From Bacteroidota bacterium (GTDB lineage Bacteria; Bacteroidota; Bacteroidia; Flavobacteriales; Flavobacteriaceae), in the NCBI GenBank assembly GCA_027619415.1, contig JAQCFO010000001.1, positions 62,001-126,000 of the forward strand: a stretch of DNA of 64,000 bases, read 5' to 3'. Every line of letters begins with the position of its first letter. Within the stretch, counting starts at the first letter, position 1. The notes under the pieces are model-generated. The model was not told where the DNA came from. It saw only the letters and a list, made by a program, of their open reading frames with translations, and did no database searches. Positions 22,338 through 61,165 of the stretch are shown piece by piece. Both the position numbers and the translations under genes were made by a program.

Positions 22338-23048
22338 TTAAACAAATGTTATCATATCATCTTTTAGGTGAGGTAACTCGTTAAAAGATAATAGGTTTAT
22401 TTCTTTATTTGAATAAAGTAGTGAAGAAAAAGAGGTGTTTCTCACAGAAAAATTCAAGTCAGCAACTACAATTTCATTATTTATCTTTAATACCTCACTT
22501 ACAATTGAACTTATAGTTCCGCCAGATGAAAAAACGCCAATTGTTTCATCTTTTTTTGTTTCATTTAAAATTAATCTTAGTGCATTTACAGAATTAAATC
22601 TAAATTTTTCCCATGGAATAATACCTTCAATAATTATTTCATTTTTCACCCACTTGTGTAAAAAATATTTAAACCCTAAAATCATATAAGTATGTTGTTT
22701 TTTGGGATTATTTTCTATTTTATCTTTTAATGACTTCAAGTATGGATCATTTATCATCCTAGGAAATTCTATCTTCATAGCTTCAGTTGCCTGATGTTCA
22801 TTTAAATCTTTCAAAACTATTGGTTTAGGAATAGCAATTACAGATTCATTATATTTTTTTGAAACTATTTCAAGAGTATGTTGTTGCCTTCTTAGATCAC
22901 CAACATAAATCTTGTCAAAAACAAGCTTTTCTTTACATAAGTATTTACCTAATTCTGCAGCTTGAAGTTCACCTTTTGATGACAATACATCATAATTATC
23001 ACTTCCTAATGACGCTTGAGCATGTCGAAATAAATAAATTTTACTCAT
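22338..23048 (-). CDS. Histidine phosphatase family protein
   Basis: A 236-residue phosphoglycerate-mutase-like phosphatase. The phosphohistidine motif LFRHAQAS occurs at residues 5-12, and the second catalytic block GVFSSGGTIS lies near residue 176, although this has Ser-Gly where many members have His. Its start overlaps the stop of the APH-like kinase gene by one base (TAATG). It is the last gene of the eight-gene minus-strand unit that begins at 30322. Beside a kinase that may make phosphoacyl-CoA, a phosphatase acting on a related intermediate is plausible but unproven. Confidence 0.85.
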   Translation of the reverse strand: MSKIYLFRHAQASLGSDNYDVLSSKGELQAAELGKYLCKEKLVFDKIYVGDLRRQQHTLEIVSKKYNESVIAIPKPIVLKDLNEHQATEAMKIEFPRMINDPYLKSLKDKIENNPKKQHTYMILGFKYFLHKWVKNEIIIEGIIPWEKFRFNSVNALRLILNETKKDETIGVFSSGGTISSIVSEVLKINNEIVVADLNFSVRNTSFSSLLYSNKEINLLSFNELPHLKDDMITFV

Positions 23049-24109
23049 TAAAAGAGATTTTCTATTCTATTTTTTTGAATTGATTGCCAGCCAGTTTTAC
23101 AAAATATTTCAGCAATTTGATTTAAGTTTTTGAACTTGTCGTTTGTTGTTAATCCTTTATTATACCTGTAATATATCTGTTGTACAATAACTGCAATTTT
23201 AAAAAGTCCAAATACATAATAAAAAACAAAATTGTTTACAGGCTCCCCAGTCTTTTTCTCATACATGTCAACAACTTCCAATCTGGTAGGATTTCCTTTA
23301 AGTGATGTTGGATAATCAAAAGCACTTAAAAGTCCCTTAGGATCTGATGACATTGCCCAATAAGCTATTGATGTTCCTAAGTCCATTAATGGATCTCCAA
23401 TTGTACACATTTCCCAGTCTAAGATTGAATTAATTTTCTTCCATGACTCTAAACTAAACACTACATTATCATACTTGTAGTCGTTGTGTATCAAACTGTG
23501 TTTATATTGTTTAGGTTGATGGTTATGAAGCCATTCCATTATAAAATTAGCCTCTTTAATATCTGAGGTTGCTGCTTTAAGGTATTGTTTACTCCAATTT
23601 CTTACTTGTCTTTCAACGTATCCCTCAGGTTTTCCTAAGTCTGATAATCCTAATTTATTATAGTCTAATTGATGTAGTTCGACCATTGTATTTAACCAGG
23701 TTTTTGAAATTGTAGAATAATCTTTTTCTAGAATAGTTTTTTCTTTTAATTCTTTTGGTGTAATAATCCTTCCATTTACTTTTTCCATCAAATAAAAAGG
23801 AGTTCCAATAATTTTTATATCATTTGAGTAAGCATAAGCAATTGGAGCTTTATCAAATCCATTATTTAAACCTTTGAGAACTTTATATTCGCGGCCCATA
23901 TCATGACCATAAACAGCGCCTTTTGGAGGTTTTCTAATTACATATTCTTTTTCTTCAATATTTAATAGATAAGTTAGGTTTGAAAAACCATTTGAATATT
24001 GCAAAACACCTAAATCACTTTTTATATTTGAAATTAGATTGTTTTCTTTTAAAAACTTTTTGAGATTGATTTCATTTAACTCTTCTCCTTTTCTCACTTT
24101 TCGTTCCAT
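23048..24109 (-). CDS. APH-like phosphotransferase, ACAD10/11-kinase type
   Basis: A 353-residue kinase-fold protein closely matching the N-terminal domain of animal ACAD10/ACAD11. The nucleotide loop region FSNLTYLL is followed by YVIRKPPKG. The Brenner motif HNDYKYDN has catalytic Asp at residue 210, and DWEMCTIGDPLMDLG follows with the metal ligand. ACAD11 kinase domains phosphorylate the 4-hydroxyl of 4-hydroxyacyl-CoAs; the partner dehydrogenase domain then removes phosphate to give an enoyl-CoA. The matching ACAD is two genes upstream (24868-26076), so this looks like the split bacterial form. The older label aminoglycoside phosphotransferase would be misleading. Confidence 0.88.
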   Translation of the reverse strand: MERKVRKGEELNEINLKKFLKENNLISNIKSDLGVLQYSNGFSNLTYLLNIEEKEYVIRKPPKGAVYGHDMGREYKVLKGLNNGFDKAPIAYAYSNDIKIIGTPFYLMEKVNGRIITPKELKEKTILEKDYSTISKTWLNTMVELHQLDYNKLGLSDLGKPEGYVERQVRNWSKQYLKAATSDIKEANFIMEWLHNHQPKQYKHSLIHNDYKYDNVVFSLESWKKINSILDWEMCTIGDPLMDLGTSIAYWAMSSDPKGLLSAFDYPTSLKGNPTRLEVVDMYEKKTGEPVNNFVFYYVFGLFKIAVIVQQIYYRYNKGLTTNDKFKNLNQIAEIFCKTGWQSIQKNRIENLF

Positions 24110-24119
24110 ACTTATCTAT

Positions 24120-24878
24120 CTATGCAGTTAGTCCACCATCAACTGAAATCGCCTGACCAGTTATGAAACTTGCTTCATCAGAACATAACCATAACATAGT
24201 ATTAACTTGTTCCATTACATTAGCAAAGCGTTTCATTGGAACATTTGCCTTTAATTTTTCTGAAATACCTTCTTTTATTTTATCCATAGCTTCAGGATCA
24301 AACATAGGAGTGACAGTAAATACTGGACATATAGCATTAACTCTAATGTTGTTTTTAGCATATTCCATAGCTACGGTTTTTGTAATGCCAATTACTGCAT
24401 GTTTACTTGCCGAATAGGCAGTGGCATTTGGCAAACCTCTAATACCAGCTATTGAAGAAGTATTTAGAATAACACCACTTCCTTGTTTTAGCATAATTGG
24501 AATTTGATTTTTAATACAATAAAATACACCTGTTGAATTAACTGACATGGTTTTGTCCCAAGATTCTATAGTTATATCTGTTATTTTTGTAAAATCTCCA
24601 CCAACTCCTGCATTATTAATAGCAACATCTAATCGTCCATATTTTTTTATAATGAAATTCATTAGGTTTTGAACCATAATATAATCTGATACATCAGTTT
24701 TAAAAAAGACAGCTTTTCCGTTATTTTTAATTATTTCCGAAACAGTTTTTAAACCATTAACCTCATTTATGTCAGAGACAACAATTGTTCCACCTTCTTT
24801 GGAAAAAGCTAATGCAGCAGCTTTTCCAATTCCTGATCCACTTCCTGTTATTAAAACTATTTTATATTTATATCTCAT
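24120..24878 (-). CDS. Short-chain dehydrogenase/reductase
   Basis: A 252-residue classical SDR. The cofactor loop is TGSGSGIGKA, followed by NNAGVGG. The catalytic set is Ser in NTSSIAG and YSASK with Tyr and Lys; VDGGLTA ends the protein. An Asp at the end of the second beta strand (VVSDI) favours NAD(H). It lies between the APH-like kinase and ACAD11-like genes and overlaps the latter by 11 bases, so it probably oxidises a hydroxyl on the same intermediates. Confidence 0.9.
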   Translation of the reverse strand: MRYKYKIVLITGSGSGIGKAAALAFSKEGGTIVVSDINEVNGLKTVSEIIKNNGKAVFFKTDVSDYIMVQNLMNFIIKKYGRLDVAINNAGVGGDFTKITDITIESWDKTMSVNSTGVFYCIKNQIPIMLKQGSGVILNTSSIAGIRGLPNATAYSASKHAVIGITKTVAMEYAKNNIRVNAICPVFTVTPMFDPEAMDKIKEGISEKLKANVPMKRFANVMEQVNTMLWLCSDEASFITGQAISVDGGLTA

Positions 24879-26076
24879 GTTCTTTTGCTAAATTTCTACC
24901 AAGTTGAAACATATGGACTTCATCTGGTCCGTCAGCTAATCTAATACATCTAGCATATACGTAGAATCCCGCTAGAGGAGTGTCTTGACTAACACCCATG
25001 CCGCCATGAACCTGTATAGCCCTATCAATTACATCACAAGCCATTTGTGGGACTGTAATTTTTATCATAGCTATTAAGTTTTTAGCTTCTTTCGCACCAA
25101 ATCTATCTATTTTATCTGCTGCTGCTAAAGTGAGTAATCTTGCTTGTTGAATTTCACATTCTGATTTAGCTATTTCTTGACGAATACTACTAAATTTAAT
25201 TAAATTTCTTCCAAAAGCAGTTCTTTGATTAGCTCTTTTACACATTAAGTCAAGTGATCTTTGAGCAGCACCAATCAACCTCATACAGTGATGAACTCGC
25301 CCAGGACCTAATCTACCTTGTGCAATTTCAAAACCTCTGCCTTCACCTAGTAGTATGTTGCTTAAAGGAACTCTGACGTTTTTTAATTCAATTTCTGCAT
25401 GACCTTCAGGAGAATCAACACTTCCAAAAACTTGCATTGGTCTTAAAATCTTAACACCTGGAGTATTTGCAGGAACTAAAATCATACTTTGCTGAACATG
25501 TTTAGCAGCTTCAGGATCTGTTTTCCCCATAACAATATATACTTTACAATGAGGATTCATAGCTCCAGAAGACCACCATTTTCTACCGTTAATAACATAA
25601 TCATCCCCATCCCTTTCAATAGAAGTTTGAATATTTGTAGCATCAGAAGAAGCAACTGCAGGTTCTGTCATTAAAAATGCTGACCTTATTTCACCATTCA
25701 TAATCGGTTTTAGCCACTGTTCTTTTTGATTATCAGTACCATATTTAGCTATGGTCTCCATATTTCCAGTATCCGGTGCAGAGCAATTAAACACTTCAGA
25801 AGCAAAGGCTAATCTTCCCATTTTTTCAGCCAGAGGAGCATATTCTAAGTTTGTTAATCCTGGACTTAGATTACCATAACCTTTGGGAAGGAATAGATTC
25901 CATAATCCTTGTTGTTTAGCCATTACTTTCCAGTTTTCCATTTCTGGATAATTTTCCCAAAGATTAATCTTGCTAAATTCATATACTTTTTGCTCGTGAG
26001 GAAAGAGGTGTTTCTCCATAAATTGATCTACTTTTTTTATCAGATCTAATGTTTTTTGTGGATATTCGAAGTTCAT
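24868..26076 (-). CDS. Acyl-CoA dehydrogenase, ACAD10/11 type
   Basis: A 402-residue flavoenzyme of the acyl-CoA dehydrogenase fold. Many segments match vertebrate ACAD10/11: LTNLEYAPLAEKMGR, EVFNCSAPDTGNME, MTEPAVASSDATNIQ, GRKWWSSGA, GRGFEIAQGRLGPGR and LADGPDEVH. In animals this domain works with a fused kinase to turn 4-hydroxyacyl-CoA into 2-enoyl-CoA. Here the kinase is a separate gene at 23048-24109. A standard dehydrogenation of an unusual acyl-CoA is the alternative. Confidence 0.9.
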   Translation of the reverse strand: MNFEYPQKTLDLIKKVDQFMEKHLFPHEQKVYEFSKINLWENYPEMENWKVMAKQQGLWNLFLPKGYGNLSPGLTNLEYAPLAEKMGRLAFASEVFNCSAPDTGNMETIAKYGTDNQKEQWLKPIMNGEIRSAFLMTEPAVASSDATNIQTSIERDGDDYVINGRKWWSSGAMNPHCKVYIVMGKTDPEAAKHVQQSMILVPANTPGVKILRPMQVFGSVDSPEGHAEIELKNVRVPLSNILLGEGRGFEIAQGRLGPGRVHHCMRLIGAAQRSLDLMCKRANQRTAFGRNLIKFSSIRQEIAKSECEIQQARLLTLAAADKIDRFGAKEAKNLIAMIKITVPQMACDVIDRAIQVHGGMGVSQDTPLAGFYVYARCIRLADGPDEVHMFQLGRNLAKEHEI

Positions 26077-26085
26077 TTTTTATTT

Positions 26086-26871
26086 TTATTGCATTGGAAT
26101 TAAAGGAGCATTCATTAAACCTCCATCATTAACTATTGAAGTACCTGTCATATAAGAGCTTGCGTCTGATGCCAAAAATACCGCTAATCCAGCCATTTCA
26201 TCTGGTGTTGACCCTCGACCTAAAGATACGTTTTTTAAAAAACCATTTTTAGAAACCTCATTTTCAAGTATACCAGCACTTAATTTTGTTTTCACATATC
26301 CAGGACAAATCATGTTAACTCTTATGTTATGTCTTCCCCACTCAATAGATTGATTTTTCCCTGCCATTATAAGTGCTGTTTTACTAATGTTATAAGCAGC
26401 CATGAAAGGAGATGGGTGTAACCCTTCAATTGAACTGATGTGTATAATGCTTCCCCCACCTTGTTTTTTCATATGTGGGTAGACTAAATTACTTAACTCG
26501 ATTGCAGAATTAACGTTGATATCCATAGTCTTTTGATATAAGTCTTCTGGCATTTTACTAATTGGTCCAAAATAGGGATTTGTTCCTGCATTATTAATTA
26601 AAATATCGATTCTACCATATTTTTTTATGACTTTTTCGACAAGTTTCAATCTGTCATCTTTTTTAGCAACATGGCATTCGATTCCAGATACTGAAAAACC
26701 AAGCTTTGTAAACTCTTCTGCTACTTGGTCGACTGCTTCTTGTTTTCTACTACTAACTACAATAATAGCTCCAAACTCAGCAAGTCCTAAAGCCATAGCT
26801 TTTCCAATACCTTTCGATGCTCCTGTTATGACAGCAACTTTATTAGTTAAATCAAATTTTTCTTTTATCAT
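26086..26871 (-). CDS. Short-chain dehydrogenase/reductase
   Basis: A 261-residue classical SDR with TGASKGIGKA, NNAGTNP, the catalytic serine in HISSIEG, YNISK and a terminal NDGGLMNAP. The segment SSRKQ after strand 2 has Arg, suggesting NADP(H). The substrate is unknown; a secondary alcohol or ketone on the island's lipid substrate is likely. It lies between the ACAD11-like gene and the first sulfatase, with gaps of about 10 bases on each side, well inside the operon. Confidence 0.9.
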   Translation of the reverse strand: MIKEKFDLTNKVAVITGASKGIGKAMALGLAEFGAIIVVSSRKQEAVDQVAEEFTKLGFSVSGIECHVAKKDDRLKLVEKVIKKYGRIDILINNAGTNPYFGPISKMPEDLYQKTMDINVNSAIELSNLVYPHMKKQGGGSIIHISSIEGLHPSPFMAAYNISKTALIMAGKNQSIEWGRHNIRVNMICPGYVKTKLSAGILENEVSKNGFLKNVSLGRGSTPDEMAGLAVFLASDASSYMTGTSIVNDGGLMNAPLIPMQ

Positions 26872-26882
26872 TTTTTATTTTT

Positions 26883-28529
26883 TTAGTTAGCCCAATATAT
26901 ATATTCGTCTTTTGTATTAACTTCTTGGTTTTGTGTTTTGTCAATAAATATGGGTGCATCAAGTAAACTCGGCCAAATTGGTTTAGATTGCTCAGATATT
27001 TTATCATTTAAAACTTCTTCAAGTTCTTTCATTTTATCGAGATTCATTTTGCTTAAGTCAGTTTTTTCTGTAGGATCAACATTTAGGTTAAATAACCATT
27101 TTTTATTTTGAATTAAATCTACTTGTAATTTCCATCCATTTTTTATTAAAAATGAGTAATTTCCGGACTTATTAAAAAGTATTCTTTCTGGTTCTCCATC
27201 TTTTTCACCACTTAAATAGGGGAGTATATCAACACCATCTAGTTCAGATTTTTTGTAATAATCAGCCTTAGCAATATTTGAAAATGTTGAAAAAATATCC
27301 ATATTAGAAACACGTCCATCATATATGCTTCCAGCAGGAATTTTACTAGGGTAGTTGACTATAAAAGGCACGTGAATTCCTCCTTCAAAATTAGTTAACT
27401 TCCACCCTCTGAATGGCTTGTTCAAATCAGGTAATCCAATATAACCTGGAGCTCCGTTATCACTTGTGAATACAATAATTGTATTATTATCAATTCCGTT
27501 ATCTTTTAATGCTTTCCGAATTTCACCAACTCCTCTGTCTACTGACATTACCATTGAAGCTAATACTCTCTCTTCATGATTTTTAATATAATCTAACCTT
27601 TCGTAATCCTCTTTTTTTGCTTGTAATGGACTGTGAACTGCCCAATAGGCCATATATAAAAAGAAAGGTCTATTCTTGTTTTTTTTAATAGCTTTAACAG
27701 CTTCAGATGTTAAATAATCTGTTAGATGACCTTTTGGTTTCATTCGTGGGCCTTCATTAAAATTAACCGCATAAGGCAAATTTCCCCATAGAAGTTTGTC
27801 AATTGGATCAAATTCTAGTTTTGCATTTATAACATTAGGATCATCTTCAGGTAAAAAAAGAGAGCCTTGGTCCATTCTTAAGCTCTCGTCAAAACCGTGT
27901 TTTCTTGGTAAAAATTCTTTAGAGTGTCCTAAGTGCCATTTTCCAATATGTATATTATGATAACCTTGTGGCTTTAACATTTCAGAAATTGTTGTTTCTG
28001 ATCTAGGAAGTCCCATTTTTTCAATTTCAATTATATTTTTTTCTTTATCGTCATGATATATAAAAGGAGCTACACCATTGTCTTTTGAAAAAAGATTTAA
28101 ACCTTTCATGAAGGTTGAAGCAGTGGGAGTGAATTCATATCCAAACCTTGTAGGAAATCTTCCTGTAAGTAAAGATGCTCTTGAGGGTGAACAAACAGCG
28201 CTTGATGAATATCCATTGGTACACAATACCCCATCATTAGCTAACTTATCTATGTTTGGTGTTTTAAAACTTCCATTAGACATACCACCACCATAAGCGC
28301 TTATTTGATTAAACCCTAAATCATCAACTAAAATGACTATAACATTTGGTTTGTCACTAGTTCTTATTTCTGGCCCTTTTTCCCAATTTACTATAATATT
28401 TTTCCCAATGGGGTTTTTCCAATCACCAATATACTTAGGCATTTTATACCAATTTTGATAAAACCATATCGAAAAGACTGCGATAAATAACAAAAAACCT
28501 ACAAAGAATTTTAGAAGTTTATTTTTCAT
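26883..28529 (-). CDS. Membrane-anchored type I sulfatase
   Basis: A 548-residue formylglycine-dependent sulfatase. An N-terminal helix (about residues 7-25) anchors it, with the domain outside the cytoplasm. VDDLGFNQ supplies the first metal aspartates. The activation motif is CSPSR, with Cys113 to be converted to formylglycine, followed by LLTGR. GKWHLG, VHSPLQA and FTSDNGAP complete the active site. It removes sulfate esters from a small or lipid substrate. No formylglycine-generating enzyme is in the window. It sits in the 30322-22338 unit, beside an NMO-family gene and an SDR. Confidence 0.93.
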   Translation of the reverse strand: MKNKLLKFFVGFLLFIAVFSIWFYQNWYKMPKYIGDWKNPIGKNIIVNWEKGPEIRTSDKPNVIVILVDDLGFNQISAYGGGMSNGSFKTPNIDKLANDGVLCTNGYSSSAVCSPSRASLLTGRFPTRFGYEFTPTASTFMKGLNLFSKDNGVAPFIYHDDKEKNIIEIEKMGLPRSETTISEMLKPQGYHNIHIGKWHLGHSKEFLPRKHGFDESLRMDQGSLFLPEDDPNVINAKLEFDPIDKLLWGNLPYAVNFNEGPRMKPKGHLTDYLTSEAVKAIKKNKNRPFFLYMAYWAVHSPLQAKKEDYERLDYIKNHEERVLASMVMSVDRGVGEIRKALKDNGIDNNTIIVFTSDNGAPGYIGLPDLNKPFRGWKLTNFEGGIHVPFIVNYPSKIPAGSIYDGRVSNMDIFSTFSNIAKADYYKKSELDGVDILPYLSGEKDGEPERILFNKSGNYSFLIKNGWKLQVDLIQNKKWLFNLNVDPTEKTDLSKMNLDKMKELEEVLNDKISEQSKPIWPSLLDAPIFIDKTQNQEVNTKDEYIYWAN

Positions 28530-29494: not shown

Positions 29495-30322
29495 CTATTT
29501 TGTAGAATATAAGTTAAATGTTTTTTTTAATCCAGCATCTCTGTGTTTTAGTGCTTCTTTATATCCAGGCATTTTTTCAAGATCAAGCATATTCCTTGCA
29601 AGGGGATATTCCATGATCCCTAAAGCTTGCCAATTTCCCTTAGTATCGTTTGGAACATTAAATTCAATTAAAGGTTCACCATTAAATCTTCCAACATATG
29701 TTATGTCACCTCCCATTAAAAGTACACTTCTTGAAGCGATATTGCCATATTTTTTATAATAGGCTTCTTTTCCGCTTATCACGATAGACAGATCACTGTA
29801 TTTAGCTGTTTCTCTGGCTTCTAATAGGTTAATCATGTAAGCTTTTTTATTAGAAGTCTCATTTAAAAGTCGTTCAGTTTGTTTTTTGCTTGGAAGAATC
29901 TCACTATTATTGTTTTCAATCAGCTCTTCTATTGATGAATTTTTAAATAATTTAAAAAGATATCCAACTGGCCTAAATAGTTTTAAAAAATTAAGTAATA
30001 ATCTAGATGGATTTTTAGGTAATACCATAAAAACTTGTAAAGCTTTTATGGTATTGAATTCTAATTTATTATTAAAAGCTTTTTCTAATATTTCTTTATT
30101 TTCAAACTCAATAATTGCTGCATTAGTCCAAAAATCTTCTTTTCCAATATTAGTATATTGACAATTAAACCAGTGAAGACAATTAATTTTATTATTTGAT
30201 ATACTAATTAGAAATTCTGAGCTATTTGAAAATTTAGAAAATTTAAAGAAATAGAATAATATAATTTTATTTGTATTTTCGGTATTTAAGAAATTAGATG
30301 GGTTGGGAATAAAATTAGTCAT
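29495..30322 (-). CDS. Unknown protein with a C-terminal DUF1330-like dimeric alpha/beta-barrel domain
   Basis: A 275-residue soluble protein, first gene of the eight-gene minus-strand unit controlled from the TetR-divergent promoter. The C-terminal half (about 160-275) looks like a DUF1330-type ferredoxin-like barrel: INLLEARETAKYSDL, AYYKKYG, IMEYPLARNMLDLEKMPGY and HRDAGLKKT are the usual landmarks. The N-terminal half may be a second, diverged copy of the fold (LHWFNCQY, NAAIIEFENKEILEKAF). Such barrels often bind or isomerise hydrophobic or aromatic compounds. I do not know a function for this architecture. Confidence 0.7.
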   Translation of the reverse strand: MTNFIPNPSNFLNTENTNKIILFYFFKFSKFSNSSEFLISISNNKINCLHWFNCQYTNIGKEDFWTNAAIIEFENKEILEKAFNNKLEFNTIKALQVFMVLPKNPSRLLLNFLKLFRPVGYLFKLFKNSSIEELIENNNSEILPSKKQTERLLNETSNKKAYMINLLEARETAKYSDLSIVISGKEAYYKKYGNIASRSVLLMGGDITYVGRFNGEPLIEFNVPNDTKGNWQALGIMEYPLARNMLDLEKMPGYKEALKHRDAGLKKTFNLYSTK

Positions 30323-31053: not shown

Positions 31054-31866
31054 TTATATCGGATAGTAATCTGGTTTTATTATAGTTGGAAATGTAATTC
31101 TAAAAGTTTCAGCACCAGAGAAGTTTGGGGCTAATAAACGTTCTCTTGTAAATTCTCCGCTAATGCCTTTAAAAATGCCTGTTCCACCAATTACAGTACC
31201 ATTAAAAACTTCACCTTTTATTCCCCATACAAACAGCATAGTTCCTGTAATTGTATCTTTTGAAGGTTCATTAACATCACCACGATTTTTAGATCTAAAT
31301 GCGAATGTAGCTGTTTGTTCTAAAATTATTTTATTCTCTAGTTTTTTACATTCTTTAACACTTTTAATATAAGCTTCTATTATTTGCTCTTTTGAACTTG
31401 TAGGAATCAGTTTCCTGTTAATAGAGCTCGCTATAAACTCACTTGAAATATCAGTGAAAAACCTATTAAATGCTGTAAAGTTTCCAATAACTCGATTGGG
31501 ATATTTTGCAACCTGAACTAATGGATCATCTTTTTCTAATTTTAAACCACCTGAAGTTTTTTCTATGAAATGAGGATCTTTTGGATCTAATTCTAGTGGG
31601 CTACAACACTCATTGTCTTGGATAGTACTATTGCTGTAAATTGGACCACCACCATGTAATATTAAACCATTACTATTTACTTCTTTTTTAGAAAGTGAAA
31701 ATAATTTCAATTTTATTGAATAAGGAATAAAAGGAATTCTAGAAAGAATAAATTTTCTTTTTATTAATGGTAAGCTACTTACCATTTCAAGATTAAAAGT
31801 TTGTCCAAATAACGGTCCGTTTGAAACTGATTCAATTGTTAAGTTGTTGTTTTTTATATCTTTCAT
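31054..31866 (-). CDS. Unknown protein with an allene-oxide-cyclase/dirigent-like C-terminal segment
   Basis: A 270-residue soluble protein with no signal peptide. The C-terminal third (about 190-270) has GTMLFVWG and then GTVIGGTGIFKGISGEFTRE. This last motif resembles the GG-GxFxGxxG turn of allene oxide cyclase and dirigent-like beta barrels, which bind hydrophobic substrates. The N-terminal part is unassigned. It is the last gene of the 36651-31054 unit, right after the membrane-fused sulfatase, and converges with the TetR gene at a six-base gap. A lipid-binding or cyclase role is a guess from fold resemblance. Confidence 0.65.
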   Translation of the reverse strand: MKDIKNNNLTIESVSNGPLFGQTFNLEMVSSLPLIKRKFILSRIPFIPYSIKLKLFSLSKKEVNSNGLILHGGGPIYSNSTIQDNECCSPLELDPKDPHFIEKTSGGLKLEKDDPLVQVAKYPNRVIGNFTAFNRFFTDISSEFIASSINRKLIPTSSKEQIIEAYIKSVKECKKLENKIILEQTATFAFRSKNRGDVNEPSKDTITGTMLFVWGIKGEVFNGTVIGGTGIFKGISGEFTRERLLAPNFSGAETFRITFPTIIKPDYYPI

Positions 31867-31867
31867 T

Positions 31868-34189
31868 TTACCAAGGAAAATAATATTTTTTAGAATTTAC
31901 TGAATTACTTACTGGAATATAAACATCAGCGTTTGAATCCCATTTTGATTTTTTTAATGTCATATTCCATTTATTCCATTTTTCAGTTAGTTCTTGAGCT
32001 TTTTTAGGGTATTTTGATATTAAATTAATTTTTTCTGAAGGATCTTCATCAATTTTAGTTAATATCTCGAAATTTTCTTTTTCGTTTATATGCAGTTTGA
32101 AATTTTCAGAAATTATAGATTTCACATAACCGGTTTTCCAAAATAATTCTTTGTGAGGAATACTCTCATTTGAACTTAAATAGGGTAGTAGCGAAACACC
32201 ATCAAACTTATTATTTTTTGATGGCGAGTTAACAGCATCTAAAATAGTAGGCACTATATCAAGTAAACTAACCATATTTGAATAATTCTCTTGGGGTTTG
32301 ATTTTTTCTGGCCATTCCATCATCATCGGAACAATAGTGCCTCCTTCAAAATTAGACATCTTTCCTCCAATGTAGGGTGAATTATCTGTGGCTCTAGTAT
32401 AAGTAGCCCCACCATTGTCACTTGTAAAAATAATTAATGTATTTTCCGCAATTCCTTCATCATTAAGAGCTTTTTTAATTTCACCAATACTATCATCTAA
32501 ATTCTTTATCATAGCATAATAAACTCTTTTATTATGATCCTTAATGTGTGAGAACTGGTCATAATATTTTTTTTGAGCCTGAAAAGGTCCATGAGGAGCC
32601 ATATGAGATAAGTGTAGAAAAAATGGTATATTTTTATTTACTTTAATGTAATCAACAGCTCTTTTTGTAAAAACATCTGTTAAATATTCTGAATTTTTTG
32701 GAATTGTTTTTTTTCCATTTTCTAGAGTGTGATAATTAGTTACCTGCCAAGTTATAAAGTCAGCAAAATCCCATGTATGTCTAGATTCTATAATATTATC
32801 CTGATTAATTGGAGCGTATAGTGATCCAGCCCCTGAAATTCCATAATGAAAGTCAAATCCAAAATTTGTAGCATTAAATTTTGAATGTGTTCCCATATGC
32901 CACTTTCCAATTACAGAAGTCTGGTAACCCATTTTCTTTAAATAATCTCCTATTGTATTTACAAAAGGATTTAAACCTCTTTTATTAATAGGAGTATCAT
33001 TTTCATACCATTTTTTGAAATTATCTTGATGTCCAAATCTTTTAAAATCTGCTTTTCTAACCCTAGGACTATAATTAAATAGATCCGGTAAGAATTCAAA
33101 TCCATATCTCTGTTGATAGTTGCCTGTTAAAAATGCAGCTCTTGAAGGCGCACATACTGAAGCTGTTGCATAAGCTCTAGAAAAATTAATTCCGTTTTTA
33201 GCTATTTGATCAATATTTTTAGTCTCTATTAATGTATTACCATTATATGAAATGTCGTTGTACCCTAAATCGTCTGCAACAATTAAAATTACATTAGGAC
33301 TAACTGTTTTATTCAATGATAGATCTGTGTATACTGCAGGATTAGAGTCAGAAAAAACAAATGAATTATAAAATGATATAAATGAAAAAATTATGATAAT
33401 TGAAAAACCAGTATAAACAAGCTTTAGCTTATTTTTAAGGTAAAACCATATCACTTCGCTTAACAACAGTGTAGGTAAAAAATATTTCCAGGTCCTTGTA
33501 AATTCATCTTCAAAAAATCCTATTGGAGAGTCAACTCCTATTTCAAAATGGTAAAGATGAATCTCGATAAGCTGAATAATCCAAGCTAACATGGATCCTG
33601 AAATGGAGATAAAAAGTATTTTTTTAATTGAACCTTTTAGTTTTTTATTAGCTACTTTATTTATATAGTACAACCCTGGAAAAACAAGAATTATAAAAAG
33701 TAGTATTATTCTAAAAAAAGACTTGTCGCTTACTGTTGTTGGCAATGCAAACAGAACGTAATTAGTCGTAATTAAAGCAGTTGTTATTATTGCAAATGAG
33801 TAGAGTAGAAGCTTACTGAAATTATTTGCTAAACTTTTTTTTTTAATTATAAAATATATACCAATACATCCTAACACAAGATGAAAAAATCCAGGTGCAG
33901 GAGTTTCAAATCCAGAACTCAAGTTTGATTGAATAACTGCGTAAGCTATTCCGATATTAAAAATTGAAAATATAATTAAAAAAGGTTTGTGTAAATTATT
34001 AAGATTAAAAAATTTCCAAATATATAATGCGAAAAGTCCAAGGGAAAATGCGGCTACGCCATACATTTTCGCAAAACCTAAAGTAAGTTGACTGACATTA
34101 TTAAATTCAGGTATTTTATCAGCAGCAAAAAACAAAACTATCCCTGCTAGAATTTCAAAAAATGCTATTAAAAGAAAAAACCTTTTCAT
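31868..34189 (-). CDS. Sulfatase fused to a polytopic membrane domain
   Basis: A 773-residue protein in two parts. Residues 1 to about 285 contain roughly eight or nine hydrophobic helices, a membrane domain I do not recognise. Residues from about 297 onward form a complete type I sulfatase: VADDLGYND, then CAPSR with the formylglycine cysteine at residue 346. AFLTGN, GKWHMGTHSK, HMAPHGPFQ and FTSDNGGA follow. Most sulfatases carry only a signal peptide or a single anchor, so this long membrane module is unusual. It may place the active site at the membrane surface or handle a lipid substrate. The start overlaps the preceding membrane-protein gene by one base. Confidence 0.9.
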   Translation of the reverse strand: MKRFFLLIAFFEILAGIVLFFAADKIPEFNNVSQLTLGFAKMYGVAAFSLGLFALYIWKFFNLNNLHKPFLIIFSIFNIGIAYAVIQSNLSSGFETPAPGFFHLVLGCIGIYFIIKKKSLANNFSKLLLYSFAIITTALITTNYVLFALPTTVSDKSFFRIILLFIILVFPGLYYINKVANKKLKGSIKKILFISISGSMLAWIIQLIEIHLYHFEIGVDSPIGFFEDEFTRTWKYFLPTLLLSEVIWFYLKNKLKLVYTGFSIIIIFSFISFYNSFVFSDSNPAVYTDLSLNKTVSPNVILIVADDLGYNDISYNGNTLIETKNIDQIAKNGINFSRAYATASVCAPSRAAFLTGNYQQRYGFEFLPDLFNYSPRVRKADFKRFGHQDNFKKWYENDTPINKRGLNPFVNTIGDYLKKMGYQTSVIGKWHMGTHSKFNATNFGFDFHYGISGAGSLYAPINQDNIIESRHTWDFADFITWQVTNYHTLENGKKTIPKNSEYLTDVFTKRAVDYIKVNKNIPFFLHLSHMAPHGPFQAQKKYYDQFSHIKDHNKRVYYAMIKNLDDSIGEIKKALNDEGIAENTLIIFTSDNGGATYTRATDNSPYIGGKMSNFEGGTIVPMMMEWPEKIKPQENYSNMVSLLDIVPTILDAVNSPSKNNKFDGVSLLPYLSSNESIPHKELFWKTGYVKSIISENFKLHINEKENFEILTKIDEDPSEKINLISKYPKKAQELTEKWNKWNMTLKKSKWDSNADVYIPVSNSVNSKKYYFPW

Positions 34190-44210: not shown

Positions 44211-46937
44211 TTAAAAGTCACGTTTTAATGAGAACATAACTTGTCTTCCTAGTGTTGGCATATTTGGAAGCATACTGTACGCCTCGTCCATAAGATTAAC
44301 AATATTCATACTAACTTTAGTCTTAGCATTTATATCATATCCTAGGTTAGTGTCAACAATGTTTCTGCTTTCTACAGTACCTGAGTAGAAGTTACCCATA
44401 CTAGCTTCGAAACCACCGTCATACTTGTATGCAACTCCTAAGTTCCATTTCCTACCATTGTCATAAGCAAAACCAGCTTTAGCTCTGTGTTTAGAATGAT
44501 TTAAGTGCCAAGATCCAGTTTCTGTTAATGATCCTAAATCGTCTTTTTCAAATACGGTTTGACTAACAGTAGAGTAGTTTGCATGTAAAGTTAAATTATC
44601 TGTAGCTCTAAATTTTAAACCGCTTTCAAATCCCCAGTAATTAACTTTACCGTAATTTTTATAACCTAACATGATATTTGGTTCTCCATTATTAGGAGCT
44701 TGATCAGTTTCGATAACACCTATTGTTCCTTGTGCTGCAATATAACTACCAAAACTAGCATAAGAGTTCGCTAATATACTAGCATAATATTCACCATATA
44801 CAGGTCCGTAGGTAGGAGTGAACGCATTTGTAAAGAATGGAAATAGTGTATTTCCAAGATCTGCACTTAAATTAGGAAGAGCAACTAGTGGACTTAATTG
44901 TTCAATAGCAACAAAATTTTCTTTAATAGAATTGTACACATTAAAACTAAATGTCATTTTATCAGAAATCATTCCTTTATAGCCAAATTCATAATGAGTT
45001 TCTTTTCCAAGCGTAGCAGTATTTCCATCTTCAAGAGGTCCAAATGGATTTCCACTTAAATCAAACATAGCTCCTTGTGAAAACGCACCTAGTCCAGCAA
45101 CTCCTGCTAAAGTGTTTTGAGAAGTTAAAAAAGGGATAAAGCCTTGTAAAGGTGTGCCAACTAAAGCAGGAGCTATATTTGCTGTAGCAACAGCAAAAGC
45201 AGTAACTATTGGCATTCCAATTCCTGAATTCGATGGTATTCCTGGAATTAACCATGATGTTGTTGGATTAGAAAAAGTTTGACCTTCTTTGTTTCCATAA
45301 ATCCATACATTTCCGTATCCACCTGGTATTTTTTGAACAGCTAAATCAACATAAAAATTTAAAGCACTTGGTGCTATAAAAGCTTTGTTGAAAGTTAATC
45401 TCATATTGTGTCTATTGCTTGGATTATAAACAAGCGCTGCTCTGGGTGCAAATGAAGATTCCCCTATTTGCGGGTACTTATCGTATCTACCAGCAAGCTG
45501 TAAATTAACCTTGTCTGAAAGTTTTGTTTTTGTTGAAAAATAAGCTCCATAAACATTATAATTATCATTGTCTTCATATCTTCCAAAAGTACCAGTACCA
45601 GTATTAAACTTCGCACTTTTATTCTCAACTCCAATAGACATGTCTGTATTGATTTCGTCGAAAGCTAGCTCATACTGAAGCTGAAACTGAGATTGTTTAC
45701 TCTCAACACCAGAAGTTACACCTGTTCTATAATTGAATCCACGATATTTGTCTTCAGATGGATTAGATGTATCTGAATAATTATATTGCATGAATAAATT
45801 TCCAGATTGAATTCTAGTTTGAATAAAACCAGTTCTTTGTTGAGCTCTAGTCTCGCCAGTTGAATTGATTAAAATATTTGCTGCAACTTCATTAATTCCT
45901 GCAACGGTTGTAATTGAAAGATCGTTAGAAGGTCTGTAGTATATCGTAGCATCAGCACCTCTTTGAGAGTTTCTTTCCTGTAATTTACCATCAATATTTC
46001 TAACTACTCTACCTGAGGCTGCGTCTTTTATTTCACTTTGAAATTGAGAAAGTGTAGATTCTGCATAATCAAAATCTTCGTTTTCACCATATTTTAAGTT
46101 AAACTTATATCCGAATGTATTTTCATCATTACTAACAGCGTGTCTAAAGTCCATTTTGTACATATTCACATCAAAACTTCCACCTTTATTAAATCCGCCT
46201 GCTTGTAGATTGATTGTTGTTCCTGGGTGTTTAAAAGGGTCTTTACTTAAATAATGAACTACACCAGCTCCAACTCCAGGACCATAAAGTGCAGATGCAG
46301 GACCCATAACAACTTCAACTCTTTCTAAATCAATATTACTTAGGTTACTAACATCAGCGTCAAAGAAATTTATTCCTGTTACATTTAAAGCTCTATAATC
46401 AAGCATCACAAGAGTCGAGGTAGTAAATAAATCTACATTGTCTCTTAAAGCAACCGTTGATCTGTTTGCACCATGTTTATCAATTTGTACACCTACCATA
46501 TCATCTAAAAGAACAATAGAGTTAAAAGCAGATTTATTTTCAATTTCTTTAGCTCCTATTATTTGAATTGATGAAGCAGCATTAATAGCTTTTTCAGCTT
46601 TTCTAGATCCAGAAATTATAACTTCGTCAAGATATTCTCCTCTTGAAAGGCTTATATTAATGATTTGATTTTCAGCTTTAACTAGTAAAGTTTGTGCTTC
46701 AAAACCAAGAGAGCTTATCTCAAAAGTCCAAGGTAAATCTTTGTCAGACGATATTGTAAAGACTCCATTGTCACCAGTTACTACACCTGTTGTAGTTCCT
46801 TGAATGATTACATTAACTCCATAAAGAGCATCTACACCATCTGTAATTTTACCTGTTACAGTGTTAGTTTGTGCGTTAACCATAAAAAATGTGGTTAATA
46901 ACAACATCAAACTAGATAAATAAAATTTAATTTTCAT
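44211..46937 (-). CDS. TonB-dependent outer-membrane receptor (no SusD partner)
   Basis: A 908-residue outer-membrane transporter. A signal peptide ends near MVNAQ. A CarboxypepD_reg-like domain follows (VTGKITDGVDALYGVNVIIQGTT), then the plug domain (NAASSIQIIGAKEIENKS, VEVVMGPASALYGPG) and a 22-strand barrel ending in SLKRDF. No SusD-like lipoprotein gene adjoins it, so glycan uptake of the SusCD kind is unlikely. A smaller or hydrophobic molecule, perhaps the island's growth substrate, is more likely. It ends at a strong terminator and starts downstream of the acyl-CoA ligase/hydrolase unit. Confidence 0.93.
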   Translation of the reverse strand: MKIKFYLSSLMLLLTTFFMVNAQTNTVTGKITDGVDALYGVNVIIQGTTTGVVTGDNGVFTISSDKDLPWTFEISSLGFEAQTLLVKAENQIINISLSRGEYLDEVIISGSRKAEKAINAASSIQIIGAKEIENKSAFNSIVLLDDMVGVQIDKHGANRSTVALRDNVDLFTTSTLVMLDYRALNVTGINFFDADVSNLSNIDLERVEVVMGPASALYGPGVGAGVVHYLSKDPFKHPGTTINLQAGGFNKGGSFDVNMYKMDFRHAVSNDENTFGYKFNLKYGENEDFDYAESTLSQFQSEIKDAASGRVVRNIDGKLQERNSQRGADATIYYRPSNDLSITTVAGINEVAANILINSTGETRAQQRTGFIQTRIQSGNLFMQYNYSDTSNPSEDKYRGFNYRTGVTSGVESKQSQFQLQYELAFDEINTDMSIGVENKSAKFNTGTGTFGRYEDNDNYNVYGAYFSTKTKLSDKVNLQLAGRYDKYPQIGESSFAPRAALVYNPSNRHNMRLTFNKAFIAPSALNFYVDLAVQKIPGGYGNVWIYGNKEGQTFSNPTTSWLIPGIPSNSGIGMPIVTAFAVATANIAPALVGTPLQGFIPFLTSQNTLAGVAGLGAFSQGAMFDLSGNPFGPLEDGNTATLGKETHYEFGYKGMISDKMTFSFNVYNSIKENFVAIEQLSPLVALPNLSADLGNTLFPFFTNAFTPTYGPVYGEYYASILANSYASFGSYIAAQGTIGVIETDQAPNNGEPNIMLGYKNYGKVNYWGFESGLKFRATDNLTLHANYSTVSQTVFEKDDLGSLTETGSWHLNHSKHRAKAGFAYDNGRKWNLGVAYKYDGGFEASMGNFYSGTVESRNIVDTNLGYDINAKTKVSMNIVNLMDEAYSMLPNMPTLGRQVMFSLKRDF

Positions 46938-47034: not shown

Positions 47035-48072
47035 TTAAGAATTCACCATTATGTGCGGTAATATGATACTATTTATTTGATTTTTAAAGTTTTTATTAAA
47101 ATCATGTCCCATACCTTTTATAATAACCAGTTGAGATCCGTGAATTAAGGATGCCATTTTTTCTGAGTGACTAGGTTTGATTAATAAATCATCTGAACCA
47201 TGAATAATTAAGGTAGGAGTTTCGATTTTCTTTAACTTCCTATATCTTGATCCAGATTTTTTTATTGCTTTTGTGTGTTGATTGAAAGCAGTTTTGTTAA
47301 ATCCATTTCTGTGTTTTATTTCATAAAGAGTTTTTAATATCTGTTTTTCTGAATTAAAAACTTGATTACCAGCCCCATGCCATAAATGATCTAATTTAAA
47401 ATGAAACTTTAAAACTTTATCAATATCTCTTTTGGTATTTCTATAGTTAAATATCATTTTTTTTAACTGACCAAATCTTTTTGAATCAGGTTTTTCAGCT
47501 TCAGGATCAAATAAATGACCTGTTGACATAAGTGAGGTGAATGAAAGCAGTTTCTCTGGATAATTAATCGCAATTATTTGTCCAATCATTCCACCCGTTG
47601 AATAGCCAATAATGTGAAATTTTTTAATATTTAAATGATTAGCAACCGCTAGTGTATCTTTAGCCATCTCTTGAAGACTATATGAATTGTATTTGGACCA
47701 ATCACGTATCCAGTCAGATTGCCCCAATCCTCTATTATCAAATCTTATAACTCTAAAGTTGTTTTTTAGAATTGTTCGTATCATTTGATCTGGCCACTGG
47801 ATCATTGTTTCTGCCGCTCCATTAATCAATAAAACTGTTGCTACAGGATTGCCCGTTTGACATAATTCTTCATAAAATAATTTAACATCTATGTTTTTTG
47901 CATATCCAGTTTTTCCCGTAATTAGTTCAGGAATATCTTTTGATTTAGCTATAGAAATGAGTTTGTTTATATACGAATCGAGAACATTATCTTCTGATTT
48001 AGTTTTTAGATAAAAGCCTAAAATAAAAGCGATAAAAATTAATAAAAAAAGTGCCATTAAATTTATTCCCAA
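47035..48072 (-). CDS. Alpha/beta hydrolase with N-terminal membrane anchor
   Basis: A 345-residue serine hydrolase. An N-terminal hydrophobic segment (about 4-22) suggests anchoring. The oxyanion region is LINGAAETMIQW, DNRGLGQSD follows, the nucleophile elbow is GYSTGGMIG, HGSDDLLIKPS carries the Asp and GMGHDF the His. An esterase or lipase acting on a lipid ester is likely. It overlaps the end of the acyl-CoA ligase gene by 10 bases, suggesting the acid it frees may be activated by that ligase. Confidence 0.88.
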   Translation of the reverse strand: MGINLMALFLLIFIAFILGFYLKTKSEDNVLDSYINKLISIAKSKDIPELITGKTGYAKNIDVKLFYEELCQTGNPVATVLLINGAAETMIQWPDQMIRTILKNNFRVIRFDNRGLGQSDWIRDWSKYNSYSLQEMAKDTLAVANHLNIKKFHIIGYSTGGMIGQIIAINYPEKLLSFTSLMSTGHLFDPEAEKPDSKRFGQLKKMIFNYRNTKRDIDKVLKFHFKLDHLWHGAGNQVFNSEKQILKTLYEIKHRNGFNKTAFNQHTKAIKKSGSRYRKLKKIETPTLIIHGSDDLLIKPSHSEKMASLIHGSQLVIIKGMGHDFNKNFKNQINSIILPHIMVNS

Positions 48073-49727
48073 ATAACAGATTCATTATTTTTTTCCCAAT
48101 CAGCATAGTTCTCAGAAAATTTCTCATCAATTTTTGCTCTTTTAATTTTAAGAGTAGGAGTGGTCATTCCATTTTCAGGCAACCAATCTTCTTTTACTAA
48201 TATAATTTTAGAGATTTTTTTGTAACCAACTAGATCGTTGTTAACTTTCTCTAAAATATTAACTAATTTTTTGGTTGTACGTTCTTTATTTTTAATAGCT
48301 AATTCTGCAGGAACTGCTAAAAGAATGGGTTGAACACAGTTAAGACCAACAATACATGTTTGAGAGAATTCAGAAACATTTCCAAAATATGCTTCTAAAA
48401 CTCCTGGTTCTATATACTTCCCTTTAGCTGTTTTGAACATATCTTTAATTCTACCAGTTATATACAGGAAACCATCATTATCAATACGTCCTTTATCACC
48501 AGTATGCAACCATCCGTCTTTTAAGGTTTCTTGAGTTACCTGCTCATTTTTATAGTAACAACTTAATAAGAATGGACCTTTCATTAAGATTTCTCCCTGG
48601 TCACTGATTTTTAATTCTACACCTGGAACTGCTTGTCCTACTGATCCCCTTCCTAAAGGTTGGTACGGGTTTAAATTTGTACATGTAGCGCAGTTTTCTG
48701 TCATACCGTACCCATTTGTAATATATATACCTATACTTCTGTACCAGTCTAATAACTCTAATGGCATTGCTGCAGCTCCGGTTACTAAAGCTTTAGCCCT
48801 AGACATTCCTAAAGCACCTTTTAGTTTCTTTTTAATTAACCAGGAAACTATCGGTATTTTTAGAAGTTTTGAAAGCTTTTTTTGTGGCATTTTCATTAAT
48901 ATTTTTTCTTGAAACTTTGTGTAAATCCTTGGAACACCTTGGAAAGCCGTTGGTTTTATATCATTTAAATTTTGTCCAAAAGTTTCTAAAGATTCCACAA
49001 ATGAAAGCGTTCCACCATACCTAAAAGCAGTATGTTCTATAACAATTCTTTCGAAAATATGATTTAATGGCATGTATGAAATAAAGTCATTATTTCCCTT
49101 CATGTCTACTCTAAGGGGATTTCCGTTTTCTGTAATTCTTTTAGTGTTATAAAGTGTCTCATATGTAAGAACAACTCCTTTTGGATCTCCGGTTGTTCCA
49201 GAAGTAAAAATTATAGTCCAAATGTCTTTTAAATTTGGAATAAAATTTTCTGTTTGTGAATCAAATTTATTTATAAAATCATACCACTGATGTCCTGTGC
49301 TAATTTTAGAATGGTCTTTATAATGAGGGAATGCTATTGTAGGCATGTCGCTACTAACGCCTTTTTTTATTTCTTCCCAGTCTTCTAATTTTCCTACAAA
49401 AAGAGCTTTAACATCACCAAATTCTAATAAATTACCTACTTCTTTGGAATTTAAGGTTGGAAAAAATGGAACAGAAATGTATCCAGCCATTGAAATAGCT
49501 AAATCAGCTATAATCCATTCTCTACAATTCTTAGAAATTAATCCAATATGACTGTCTTTTTCTAAACCTAAACTTTTTAATCCATTAGCGAGTTTTCTTG
49601 CCATTAACCCAACTTCATTCCAAGTATAGGTCTCCCATAGGTTTCCAAATGGTTGTTTAAGAAATGGTTTGTCAGAAAGTTCTTTTTCCCATCTGTAAAA
49701 AGGAAAATCAAATAACTCGTTGTTCAT
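48063..49727 (-). CDS. AMP-forming long-chain acyl-CoA synthetase
   Basis: A 554-residue adenylate-forming enzyme that makes acyl-CoA from a free acid, ATP and CoA. The P-loop-like motif is FTSGTTGDPKGV, GYGMTENC is motif II, GWLHTGDKGRID is motif III, and GRIKDMFKTAKGKYIEP carries the catalytic lysine region. It resembles the FACL/FAA1 branch of acyl-CoA ligases. It is coupled to the downstream hydrolase gene. It would be the entry step to CoA-bound breakdown on this island. The substrate is unknown. Confidence 0.93.
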   Translation of the reverse strand: MNNELFDFPFYRWEKELSDKPFLKQPFGNLWETYTWNEVGLMARKLANGLKSLGLEKDSHIGLISKNCREWIIADLAISMAGYISVPFFPTLNSKEVGNLLEFGDVKALFVGKLEDWEEIKKGVSSDMPTIAFPHYKDHSKISTGHQWYDFINKFDSQTENFIPNLKDIWTIIFTSGTTGDPKGVVLTYETLYNTKRITENGNPLRVDMKGNNDFISYMPLNHIFERIVIEHTAFRYGGTLSFVESLETFGQNLNDIKPTAFQGVPRIYTKFQEKILMKMPQKKLSKLLKIPIVSWLIKKKLKGALGMSRAKALVTGAAAMPLELLDWYRSIGIYITNGYGMTENCATCTNLNPYQPLGRGSVGQAVPGVELKISDQGEILMKGPFLLSCYYKNEQVTQETLKDGWLHTGDKGRIDNDGFLYITGRIKDMFKTAKGKYIEPGVLEAYFGNVSEFSQTCIVGLNCVQPILLAVPAELAIKNKERTTKKLVNILEKVNNDLVGYKKISKIILVKEDWLPENGMTTPTLKIKRAKIDEKFSENYADWEKNNESVIWE

Positions 49728-58133: not shown

Positions 58134-59129
58134 ATGATTGATAATAAATTTGTAAAATTAATGAAACGTCCTTCTGGATTTCCTTCCAAGGATACATGGT
58201 CACATGAAAAGGAACAGGTTAAAGCTATAAAAGATGGAGAAATTTTAATTAAAAACTTGTATGTTTCATTAGATCCTGCAATGAGGGGATGGTTGAATGA
58301 AGCTAGATCTTATATTCCTCCAGTTAAAATTGGAGAAGTTATGAGAGCTGGAACTATAGGAGAAGTGATTGAGTCAAAAAATTCAAAATTTAAAAAAGGT
58401 GATATTCTATCTGGTTGGGGTGGTGTTCAACAATATTCTATTTCTGATGGAAAGGGATATTTCAAGATTAATCCAAGTCAAATTCCGTTACAAACTTATA
58501 TAGGAACTTTGGGAATGCCAGGAATGACAGCATATTTTGGAATTCTTGAAGTTGGAAAAATTAAAGAAGGTGATGCCGTTTTGGTTTCTGCAGCAGCTGG
58601 TGCAGTTGGAGGTATTGTAGGCCAAATTGCTAAGATCAAGGGATGCAAAGTTATTGGTATAGCAGGAGGTAAAGAAAAGTGCGATTATGTAATAAATGAA
58701 CTAGGTTTTGATGGATGTATAGATTATAAAAATGAAAGTGTAAAAAGAGGAATTAAAAGAGAATGCCCTAATGGTATAGATGTTTATTTTGATAATGTTG
58801 GTGGTGAGATTTTAGATTCAGCTTTAGTTTTTTTAAGGATGGGAGCTAGAATTGTTATTTGTGGAGCAATTTCTCAATACAATGAAATGTCAGCAAAAGG
58901 ACCTGATAATTATTTATCACTTCTTGTTAATAGAGCGACTATGAAGGGAATGGTTGTTTTTGATTATGTTAATAAATACCCATTAGCTACTAAGGAAATG
59001 ACTCAATGGATTATTGATGGGAGTTTGAAATCTAAAGAAGATGTATACGATGGAATAGAAAACTTTTATGAAATTTTTAAAAAGTTATTTAACGGAGAAA
59101 AAAAAGGTAAGTTAATTTTAAAACTATAA
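58134..59129 (+). CDS. NADP-dependent zinc-free oxidoreductase (MDR, CurA/PTGR-like)
   Basis: A 331-residue medium-chain reductase without the zinc ligands of alcohol dehydrogenases. [11 protein letters not shown] and VGEV-type segments lie near the N terminus. The NADPH-binding motif is [16 protein letters not shown], and IDYKNES and [12 protein letters not shown] follow. Related enzymes reduce the double bond of alpha,beta-unsaturated ketones or enoyl compounds. It is the first gene of a unit with a thiolase and has an operator copy just upstream. Confidence 0.9.
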
Positions 59130-59131
59130 AT

Positions 59132-60313: not shown

Positions 60314-60363
60314 TGAAGAAATTAAAGTCTACACAATAAATAAGTAATGCTTTTTTTCTTAAA

Positions 60364-60381
60364 TTAGTATCGAAATACTAA
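60364..60381. promoter_or_regulatory. Palindromic operator TTAGTAT-N4-ATACTAA (copy 6)
   Basis: Perfect 14/14 match, spacer CGAA, 24 bases upstream of the SDR gene at 60406. It gives the AbfD-containing unit its own control site. Confidence 0.78.
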
Positions 60382-60405
60382 TTAATTGAATTTAAAATTA
60401 AAATT

Positions 60406-61146: not shown

Positions 61147-61165
61147 AATTTTAAAATATATAACT

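Follow-up and report, generated by a model that had tools for sequence, protein, structure and literature searches.

An ACAD10/11-type kinase and dehydrogenase in one gene run

The window analyzed here is a 64,000-nucleotide stretch from a Bacteroidota bacterium of the family Flavobacteriaceae (contig JAQCFO010000001.1 of assembly GCA_027619415.1, positions 62,001 to 126,000). The source is a draft genome of 1.66 Mb, in which the window is part of a contig of 135 kb; GC content ranges from 0.26 to 0.33 along the window. The window carries a gene pair that resembles the kinase and acyl-CoA dehydrogenase (ACAD) parts of ACAD10 and ACAD11. In animals, ACAD11 unites the two parts in a single chain that removes a hydroxyl group from fatty acids. 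The pair belongs to a run on the reverse strand that comprises, in order, a sulfatase (26883-28529), a short-chain dehydrogenase/reductase (SDR) that we call SDR2 (26086-26871), an ACAD of 402 amino acids with N-terminal, middle, and C-terminal ACAD domains (24868-26076), a second SDR, SDR1 (24120-24878), an APH-fold kinase of 353 amino acids (23048-24109; Pfam APH, E 1.4e-36), and a histidine-phosphatase-fold protein (22338-23048). The successive gaps are 11, 9, -11, 10, and -1 bp, the last being a 1 bp overlap of the phosphatase and kinase genes, and the five genes from SDR2 to the phosphatase are packed in an operon-like manner.

By score, the ACAD resembles ACAD11 far beyond chance, with ordinary ACADs standing well apart. 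A search of Protein Data Bank (PDB) sequences returned 454.5 and 452.2 bits for mouse ACAD11, 448.8 bits for human ACAD11, and 412.6 bits for 4hr3, a "putative acyl-CoA dehydrogenase," whereas the best ordinary ACAD reached only 147.7 bits. According to PMC12440821, the 4-phosphate pocket of mouse ACAD11 is formed by R626, H634, and R637, with R631 orienting the substrate, D753 serving as the catalytic residue, and H597 being useful but not critical. Alignment places R626, R631, H634, R637, and D753 of ACAD11 opposite R255, R260, H263, R266, and D382 of the window protein, and H597 opposite H226; all six window residues are invariant in 12 genomes of the genus (the window and 11 others). D382 is the catalytic Asp at a position where ordinary ACADs have Glu.

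The same distinction extends to the 108 loci that we fetched. The five key pocket and catalytic residues occur in 37 of 37 ACADs scoring at least 600 bits and in 34 of 34 scoring 300 to 600 bits (71 of 71 above 300 bits), with the H597 column differing in one ACAD of each score class. Among the 24 lower-scoring ACADs, all five are found in a single protein, a contig-edge ACAD11 fragment (L098), which is also the only one with Asp at the D382 column; 15 of the 24 have Glu there. The scores, the pocket residues, and the co-occurrence described below led us to reject an ordinary β-oxidation ACAD that happens to lie beside an unrelated kinase. A second, more distant class of ACAD11-like proteins was also seen in L060 and L076-L124, at about 360-430 bits and roughly 38-45% identity to the window ACAD; it has the same phosphate pocket and is possibly a separate substrate class. 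No ACAD relative was found in viral contigs.

At E 0.001, the genome contains no APH-family match other than the kinase. Its strong PDB matches comprise four distinct sequences: 9o56, named "aminoglycoside phosphotransferase" (259.7 bits), 3dxp, a "putative acyl-CoA dehydrogenase" (158.5 bits), and two of the mouse ACAD11 kinase domain (145.9 and 142.2 bits); the two other matches score at most 22 bits. NCBIfam models match it only below threshold, thiamine kinase among them, and our literature search found no paper naming 9o56. The ACAD11 residues D220, N225, R86, and R176 correspond to D210, N215, R73, and R167 of the window kinase, where D210 is the catalytic Asp, N215 the Asn after it, and R73 and R167 the CoA-contact arginines. 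All four are common to 107 of 107 aligned kinase rows, a set that includes the window and in which one contig is counted twice, as L048 and L059. The two proteins are encoded by separate open reading frames (ORFs) in the window, and no fusion of ACAD and kinase was found among the ORFs of the 108 loci; a kinase fusion in long ORFs was considered and rejected, as a second domain was not found.

Taken together, the ACAD and kinase very probably represent a split bacterial ACAD10/11 of the LvaA/LvaC kind, predicted to carry out the core reaction on 4-hydroxyacyl-CoA. A preliminary description of the stretch had proposed just such a pair, with ORFs exactly where we find them; the scores (454 versus 148 bits for the ACAD, 146 and 142 bits to ACAD11 for the kinase) bear it out, and both the phosphate-pocket and the kinase residues that it had proposed to check against ACAD11 are present and invariant.

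Linkage of the pair and its accessory genes

Kinase-ACAD linkage is strong. We examined 60 relatives, the source genome included, of which 22 belong to the genus and 38 lie outside it. The kinase is present in 19 of the 60, all among the 22 draft genomes of the genus, and an ACAD11-type gene in 19 of these 22, three times as a contig-edge fragment, as against 0 of the 38 outside. The idea that this absence makes the system unique to the genus was rejected, since it is present in other Flavobacteriaceae and in many phyla. In an independent family sample of 110 genomes, both genes occur in 11, the ACAD alone in one, the kinase alone in none, and neither in 98 (Fisher p 2.8e-14, or 2.8e-11 without the source genus and one near relative, both values being uncorrected for kinship). 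The gap between the two genes is 32-61 bp in 8 of the 11 genomes and 761-763 bp, one gene length, in the other three; in the two of these three that were read, the intervening gene is an SDR. The spacing given in the preliminary description, two genes apart, is that of the window, where one SDR intervenes, but direct adjacency prevails in the family sample.

Searching genome contigs for the kinase yielded at least 570 confirmed relatives, of which the best 80 were kept. Within 4 kb, 45 of these loci have an ACAD11-type gene, 15 others have the phosphatase but no such gene, and the remaining 20, some of them on short contigs, lack both. Nineteen Pseudomonas-type loci lack a near ACAD; whole-genome searches of 12 of them returned an ACAD11-type gene elsewhere in every case, at 57-59% identity and with the pocket intact. 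Our listing of neighbors omitted 17 Pseudomonas-type loci. Ten plasmid stretches were also inspected. The order ACAD-SDR-kinase-histidine phosphatase is annotated on a Pseudoalteromonas plasmid (L053) and recurs, with one extra gene each, on Deinococcus (L050) and Streptomyces (L054) plasmids.

Within the genus, the genes around the pair are less constant. Of 17 congener loci in which both genes are readable, 11 have an intervening SDR and six have no gene in between. Among 16 readable loci each, the phosphatase comes after the kinase in 14 and SDR2 before the ACAD in 14; both are missing from two congeners (L044 and L045). Because these two carry the pair without phosphatase and SDR2, the core is ACAD plus kinase, with the SDRs and the phosphatase accessory. 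The phosphatase and two SDRs that had been thought to complete the unit are indeed in the run here, but their absences in congeners (the phosphatase and SDR2 in 2 of 16, the middle SDR in 6 of 17) weaken this part of the description. An SDR2 homolog upstream of the ACAD is also found in L062-L072. In the six loci without a middle SDR (L040-L045), genes for an NMO-family protein, an SDR, and a TonB receptor all lie no more than 5 kb from the pair. Next comes an acyl-CoA ligase in the four loci for which the fetched sequence extends that far; an α/β hydrolase is seen in 4 of 6. The window counterparts of these neighbors lie at 43-50 kb. A homolog of the sulfatase that begins the run in the window is absent from L040-L045.

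A Ser-for-His histidine-phosphatase-fold protein linked to the kinase

We take the signature of branch 1 histidine phosphatases to be a nucleophilic His in an RH(G/A) motif, a second Arg, and an acid Glu, and we presume that the second catalytic His follows a core β strand, a position that, with the alignment, we assign to S175 of the window protein. The residues R8, H9, R54, and E84 are kept in 45 of 45 aligned rows (window included, and with the L048/L059 contig again counted twice), yet all 45 have Ser, mostly within TSGG, where the second catalytic His is expected. Other histidine phosphatases in control genomes have His at this position in 20 of 20 readable cases. For this control, 30 of 63 matched stretches were turned into loci, of which L162, L176, and L178 were unreadable at the motif and excluded, and L169 and L188 carry one and the same gene. 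The control also contained six distinct Ser-type genes, and each adjoins the kinase or the ACAD of this system.

The search model had been built from Ser-type members, and a second model was made from 11 canonical members. Over the 108 loci, the canonical model recovered 42 of the 44 genes of the Ser type, plus a single histidine phosphatase of another kind, which stands beside a Ser-type gene in L101, so that an artifact of the Ser-type model was rejected as the source of the uniform Ser. Each of 25 genomes from one Pseudomonas group has exactly one Ser-type match at E 1e-30, with FTSGG in 25 of 25 and the kinase in the fetched flank in 24 of 25. The phosphatase lies within 4 kb in 27 of the best 80 kinase loci, spread over many phyla, and none was found farther out; universal linkage was rejected on this count, and in the Flavobacteriaceae loci L060-L072 no phosphatase was found. 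An AlphaFold2 model has a confident histidine-phosphatase fold (predicted local distance difference test score, pLDDT, of 94.6) that places S175 directly after strand 169-174, with PGAM5, phosphoserine phosphatases, and PhoE among its nearest solved folds. A PDB sequence search at E 0.01 returned no relative.

The window protein belongs to a kinase-linked subfamily with Ser for His, which suggests that the phosphatase has become a weakened or regulatory partner. It is conceivable, at somewhat less than even chances, that the protein is nonetheless active and hydrolyzes the 4-phosphate in a futile cycle or as clean-up, with net flow set by the balance of kinase and phosphatase. The retained core residues and the well-formed fold are compatible with activity, a conserved late His (H227, in 42 of 45 rows) might compensate for S175, and the authors of PMC6692424 propose dephosphorylation of 4-phosphovaleryl-CoA by the phosphatase of their cluster. 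The contrast between Ser in 45 of 45 and His in 20 of 20 speaks against it. More speculatively, and as a reading that we hold to be rather unlikely as it stands, the protein could serve the 4-hydroxyacyl-CoA kinase as a dedicated control subunit, weakened or dead as an enzyme, that senses or limits 4-phosphoacyl-CoA. Such a subunit would have evolved independently in bacteria as the equivalent of the degenerate HAD domain, which holds the ACAD10 kinase in check; we draw this parallel by analogy. If true, this would account for the pairing of kinase and phosphatase genes kept across many phyla, and evolution may twice have joined a crippled phosphatase to this kinase. In open-licence literature, our search turned up no report of the Ser change and none of a regulatory role for the phosphatase, and the phosphatase locus of the Pseudomonas citronellolis lva cluster was not recognized among the 25 genomes searched from one Pseudomonas group.

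The surrounding gene block and the proposed pathway

The gene run sits in a large lipid-breakdown block; from 22 to 64 kb, the window encodes sulfatases, hydrolases, a fatty-acid-hydroxylase-family protein, thiolases, ACADs, a TonB receptor, a ligase, a Baeyer-Villiger monooxygenase (BVMO)-like flavoprotein, a biotin-dependent carboxylase pair, enoyl-CoA hydratases, a MaoC protein, and SDRs. On the reverse strand lie the TonB-dependent receptor (44211-46937), whose homolog is within 5 kb of the ACAD gene in L040-L045, and an α/β hydrolase with an AMP-forming acyl-CoA ligase (47035-49727), which likewise have homologs near the pair among these loci. On the forward strand, a 2-alkenal-type reductase, a thiolase, a FabG-like SDR (SDR4), and a MaoC hydratase occupy 58134-61642; homologs of the reductase, SDR4, and MaoC follow SDR2-ACAD-kinase-SDR1 in the same run in L062, L064, L067, L068, and L070.

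The last gene of the window (62434-63942, forward strand) encodes a 4-hydroxybutyryl-CoA dehydratase of the AbfD type. Pfam and NCBIfam names suggested an HpaB-type monooxygenase, which the PDB scores led us to reject: 769 bits against 6vjr and 547 against 1u8v, compared with at most 105 against HpaB-type enzymes. The iron-sulfur (Fe-S) ligands of AbfD, which we take to be C99, C103, H292, and C299, are kept as C99, C103, H291, and C297. Known enzymes of this type (6vjr, 1u8v) remove a 4-hydroxyl by an Fe-S/FAD (flavin adenine dinucleotide) route unlike that of a kinase and ACAD; the block also encodes, in this protein, a chemically different enzyme for this step. The gene is full length in 2 of the 22 genus genomes (the source genome and one of 21 congeners), present in pieces in another (G019), and lacking in all 38 genomes from outside the genus. 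One Bacteroidetes single-cell genome (L124, 5263-9053) has a homolog of 82% identity between an ACAD11-like gene and the kinase, in the order SDR4-SDR2-MaoC-enoyl-CoA hydratase-ACAD11-like-4-hydroxybutyryl-CoA dehydratase-kinase-ACAD-ACAD. The gene runs of L124, L062, L064, L067, L068, and L070 support the view of the block as one pathway.

Two adjacent ACAD genes stand just past the window end (L151:5949-8273). The first product is closest to Tcur3483 (156 bits) and then to the FadE26-type 4x28 (141 bits), resembling heteromeric side-chain dehydrogenases (6wy9, 4x28); the second is closest to isovaleryl-CoA dehydrogenase (112 bits), with Tcur3481 at 94. Both are nearest the NCBIfam models of pimeloyl-CoA dehydrogenase subunits, below the cut-off.

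From the observed family membership, residues, linkage, and packing, we infer an activity, its direction and substrate, and roles for the SDRs and the phosphatase as follows. The kinase would transfer phosphate from ATP to the 4-hydroxyl group of a 4-hydroxyacyl-CoA, and the ACAD, with FAD and the catalytic D382, would expel the phosphate by an internal, redox-neutral elimination, giving a 2-enoyl-CoA for β-oxidation. The most likely role of the SDRs is to form the 4-hydroxy group from a 4-oxoacyl-CoA or to interconvert the two, with SDR1 acting on the 4-oxo/4-hydroxy couple by analogy to LvaD, and that of the histidine-phosphatase-like protein is to act on the phosphorylated intermediate or hold it back. 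Rather than levulinate, the substrate may be a larger acyl side chain, branched or cyclic, that enters through the TonB receptor and is activated by the ligase encoded in the block. The kinase-then-ACAD dehydroxylation put forward in the preliminary description is supported at the level of sequence by the pocket, the kinase residues, and the linkage.

The mechanism itself is not new, having been published for LvaA/LvaC, ACAD10/11, and a P. citronellolis cluster; what goes further here is the Ser-for-His phosphatase partner and the link with 4-hydroxybutyryl-CoA dehydratase. In PMC11342911 and PMC12440821, LvaA and LvaC of Pseudomonas putida are described as akin to ACAD10/11, and in the former, orthologs from another bacterium replace both ACAD10 domains in vitro. 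The window shares with mammalian ACAD11/ACAD10 the ACAD phosphate pocket, the counterparts of R631 and D753, and the kinase residues D220, N225, R86, and R176 (PMC12440821 and PMC11342911), but has two genes and no HAD domain, with the histidine-phosphatase-fold gene beside the kinase instead. Like the P. putida lva operon, it has separate genes for kinase, ACAD, SDR, and CoA ligase, and would act through a phosphorylated intermediate (PMC11342911, PMC6692424, and PMC9399607); unlike it, by comparison with its published descriptions, it has a TonB receptor and TetR-type regulators rather than the lva transporter and regulator. Besides the SDRs and the phosphatase there is no room for an LvaB-like gene beside the kinase and ACAD, although no genome-wide search for LvaB was made. 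Among published layouts, the closest that we found is that of P. citronellolis LA18T (PMC6692424), where LvaA-, LvaC-, and LvaD-like genes and a histidine phosphatase form one run, with no LvaB, and where the phosphatase is suggested to act on the phospho-intermediate; gene order and organism differ from ours.

Several points weigh against a split ACAD10/11 acting in this way. The kinase is nearer 9o56 (260 bits) than the ACAD11 kinase (146 bits), and its substrate may differ accordingly. No ACAD11-type gene lies within 4 kb in 35 of the best 80 kinase loci, and of these 35 only 12 genomes were searched for an unlinked one. The pair's neighbors vary among congeners, a Cupriavidus plasmid (L051, one of the 10 stretches) has the ACAD with no kinase in sight, and the substrate proposal is a guess from gene context.

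A plain levulinate/4-hydroxyvalerate (lva) system acting on C5 acids, with SDR, kinase, ACAD, and ligase as LvaD, LvaA, LvaC, and LvaE, has the same set of enzymes in its favor, and according to PMC6692424, the P. citronellolis cluster, which lacks lvaB, stands beside the two genes most strongly upregulated on levulinate. We nevertheless consider it improbable for the window: the ORFs scanned include none named as an lvaF/lvaG-type acetate permease or as a sigma54 regulator, what the block does have is a TonB receptor, sulfatases, a MaoC protein, and a BVMO-like flavoprotein, and the Tcur3483/4x28-like and isovaleryl-CoA dehydrogenase-like ACADs lie just beyond. That the kinase acts on an unrelated small molecule, with the ACAD nearby by accident, is highly improbable: APH-fold kinases are very diverse, the NCBIfam matches (thiamine kinase, for example) are sub-threshold, and 20 of the 80 kinase loci, some on short contigs, have neither an ACAD11-type gene nor the phosphatase near, but in the family sample all 11 kinase-bearing genomes have the ACAD next to the kinase or one gene length away, all 12 unlinked Pseudomonas genomes examined have the ACAD, and the CoA-contact R73 and R167 are present in 107 of 107 kinase rows.

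The split ACAD10/11 reading would extend the human ACAD10/11 enzyme pair, itself understood only recently, to a small-genome flavobacterial genus of marine type, in the form of cleanly separate proteins convenient for biochemistry.

The block contains two sulfatases, that of the run (26883-28529) and another at 31868-34189, also on the reverse strand, a hint of sulfated substrates. Two further reverse-strand ORFs, 29495-30322 and 31054-31866, encode proteins of 275 and 270 amino acids without a Pfam or NCBIfam match and are kept upstream of the cluster in many congeners.

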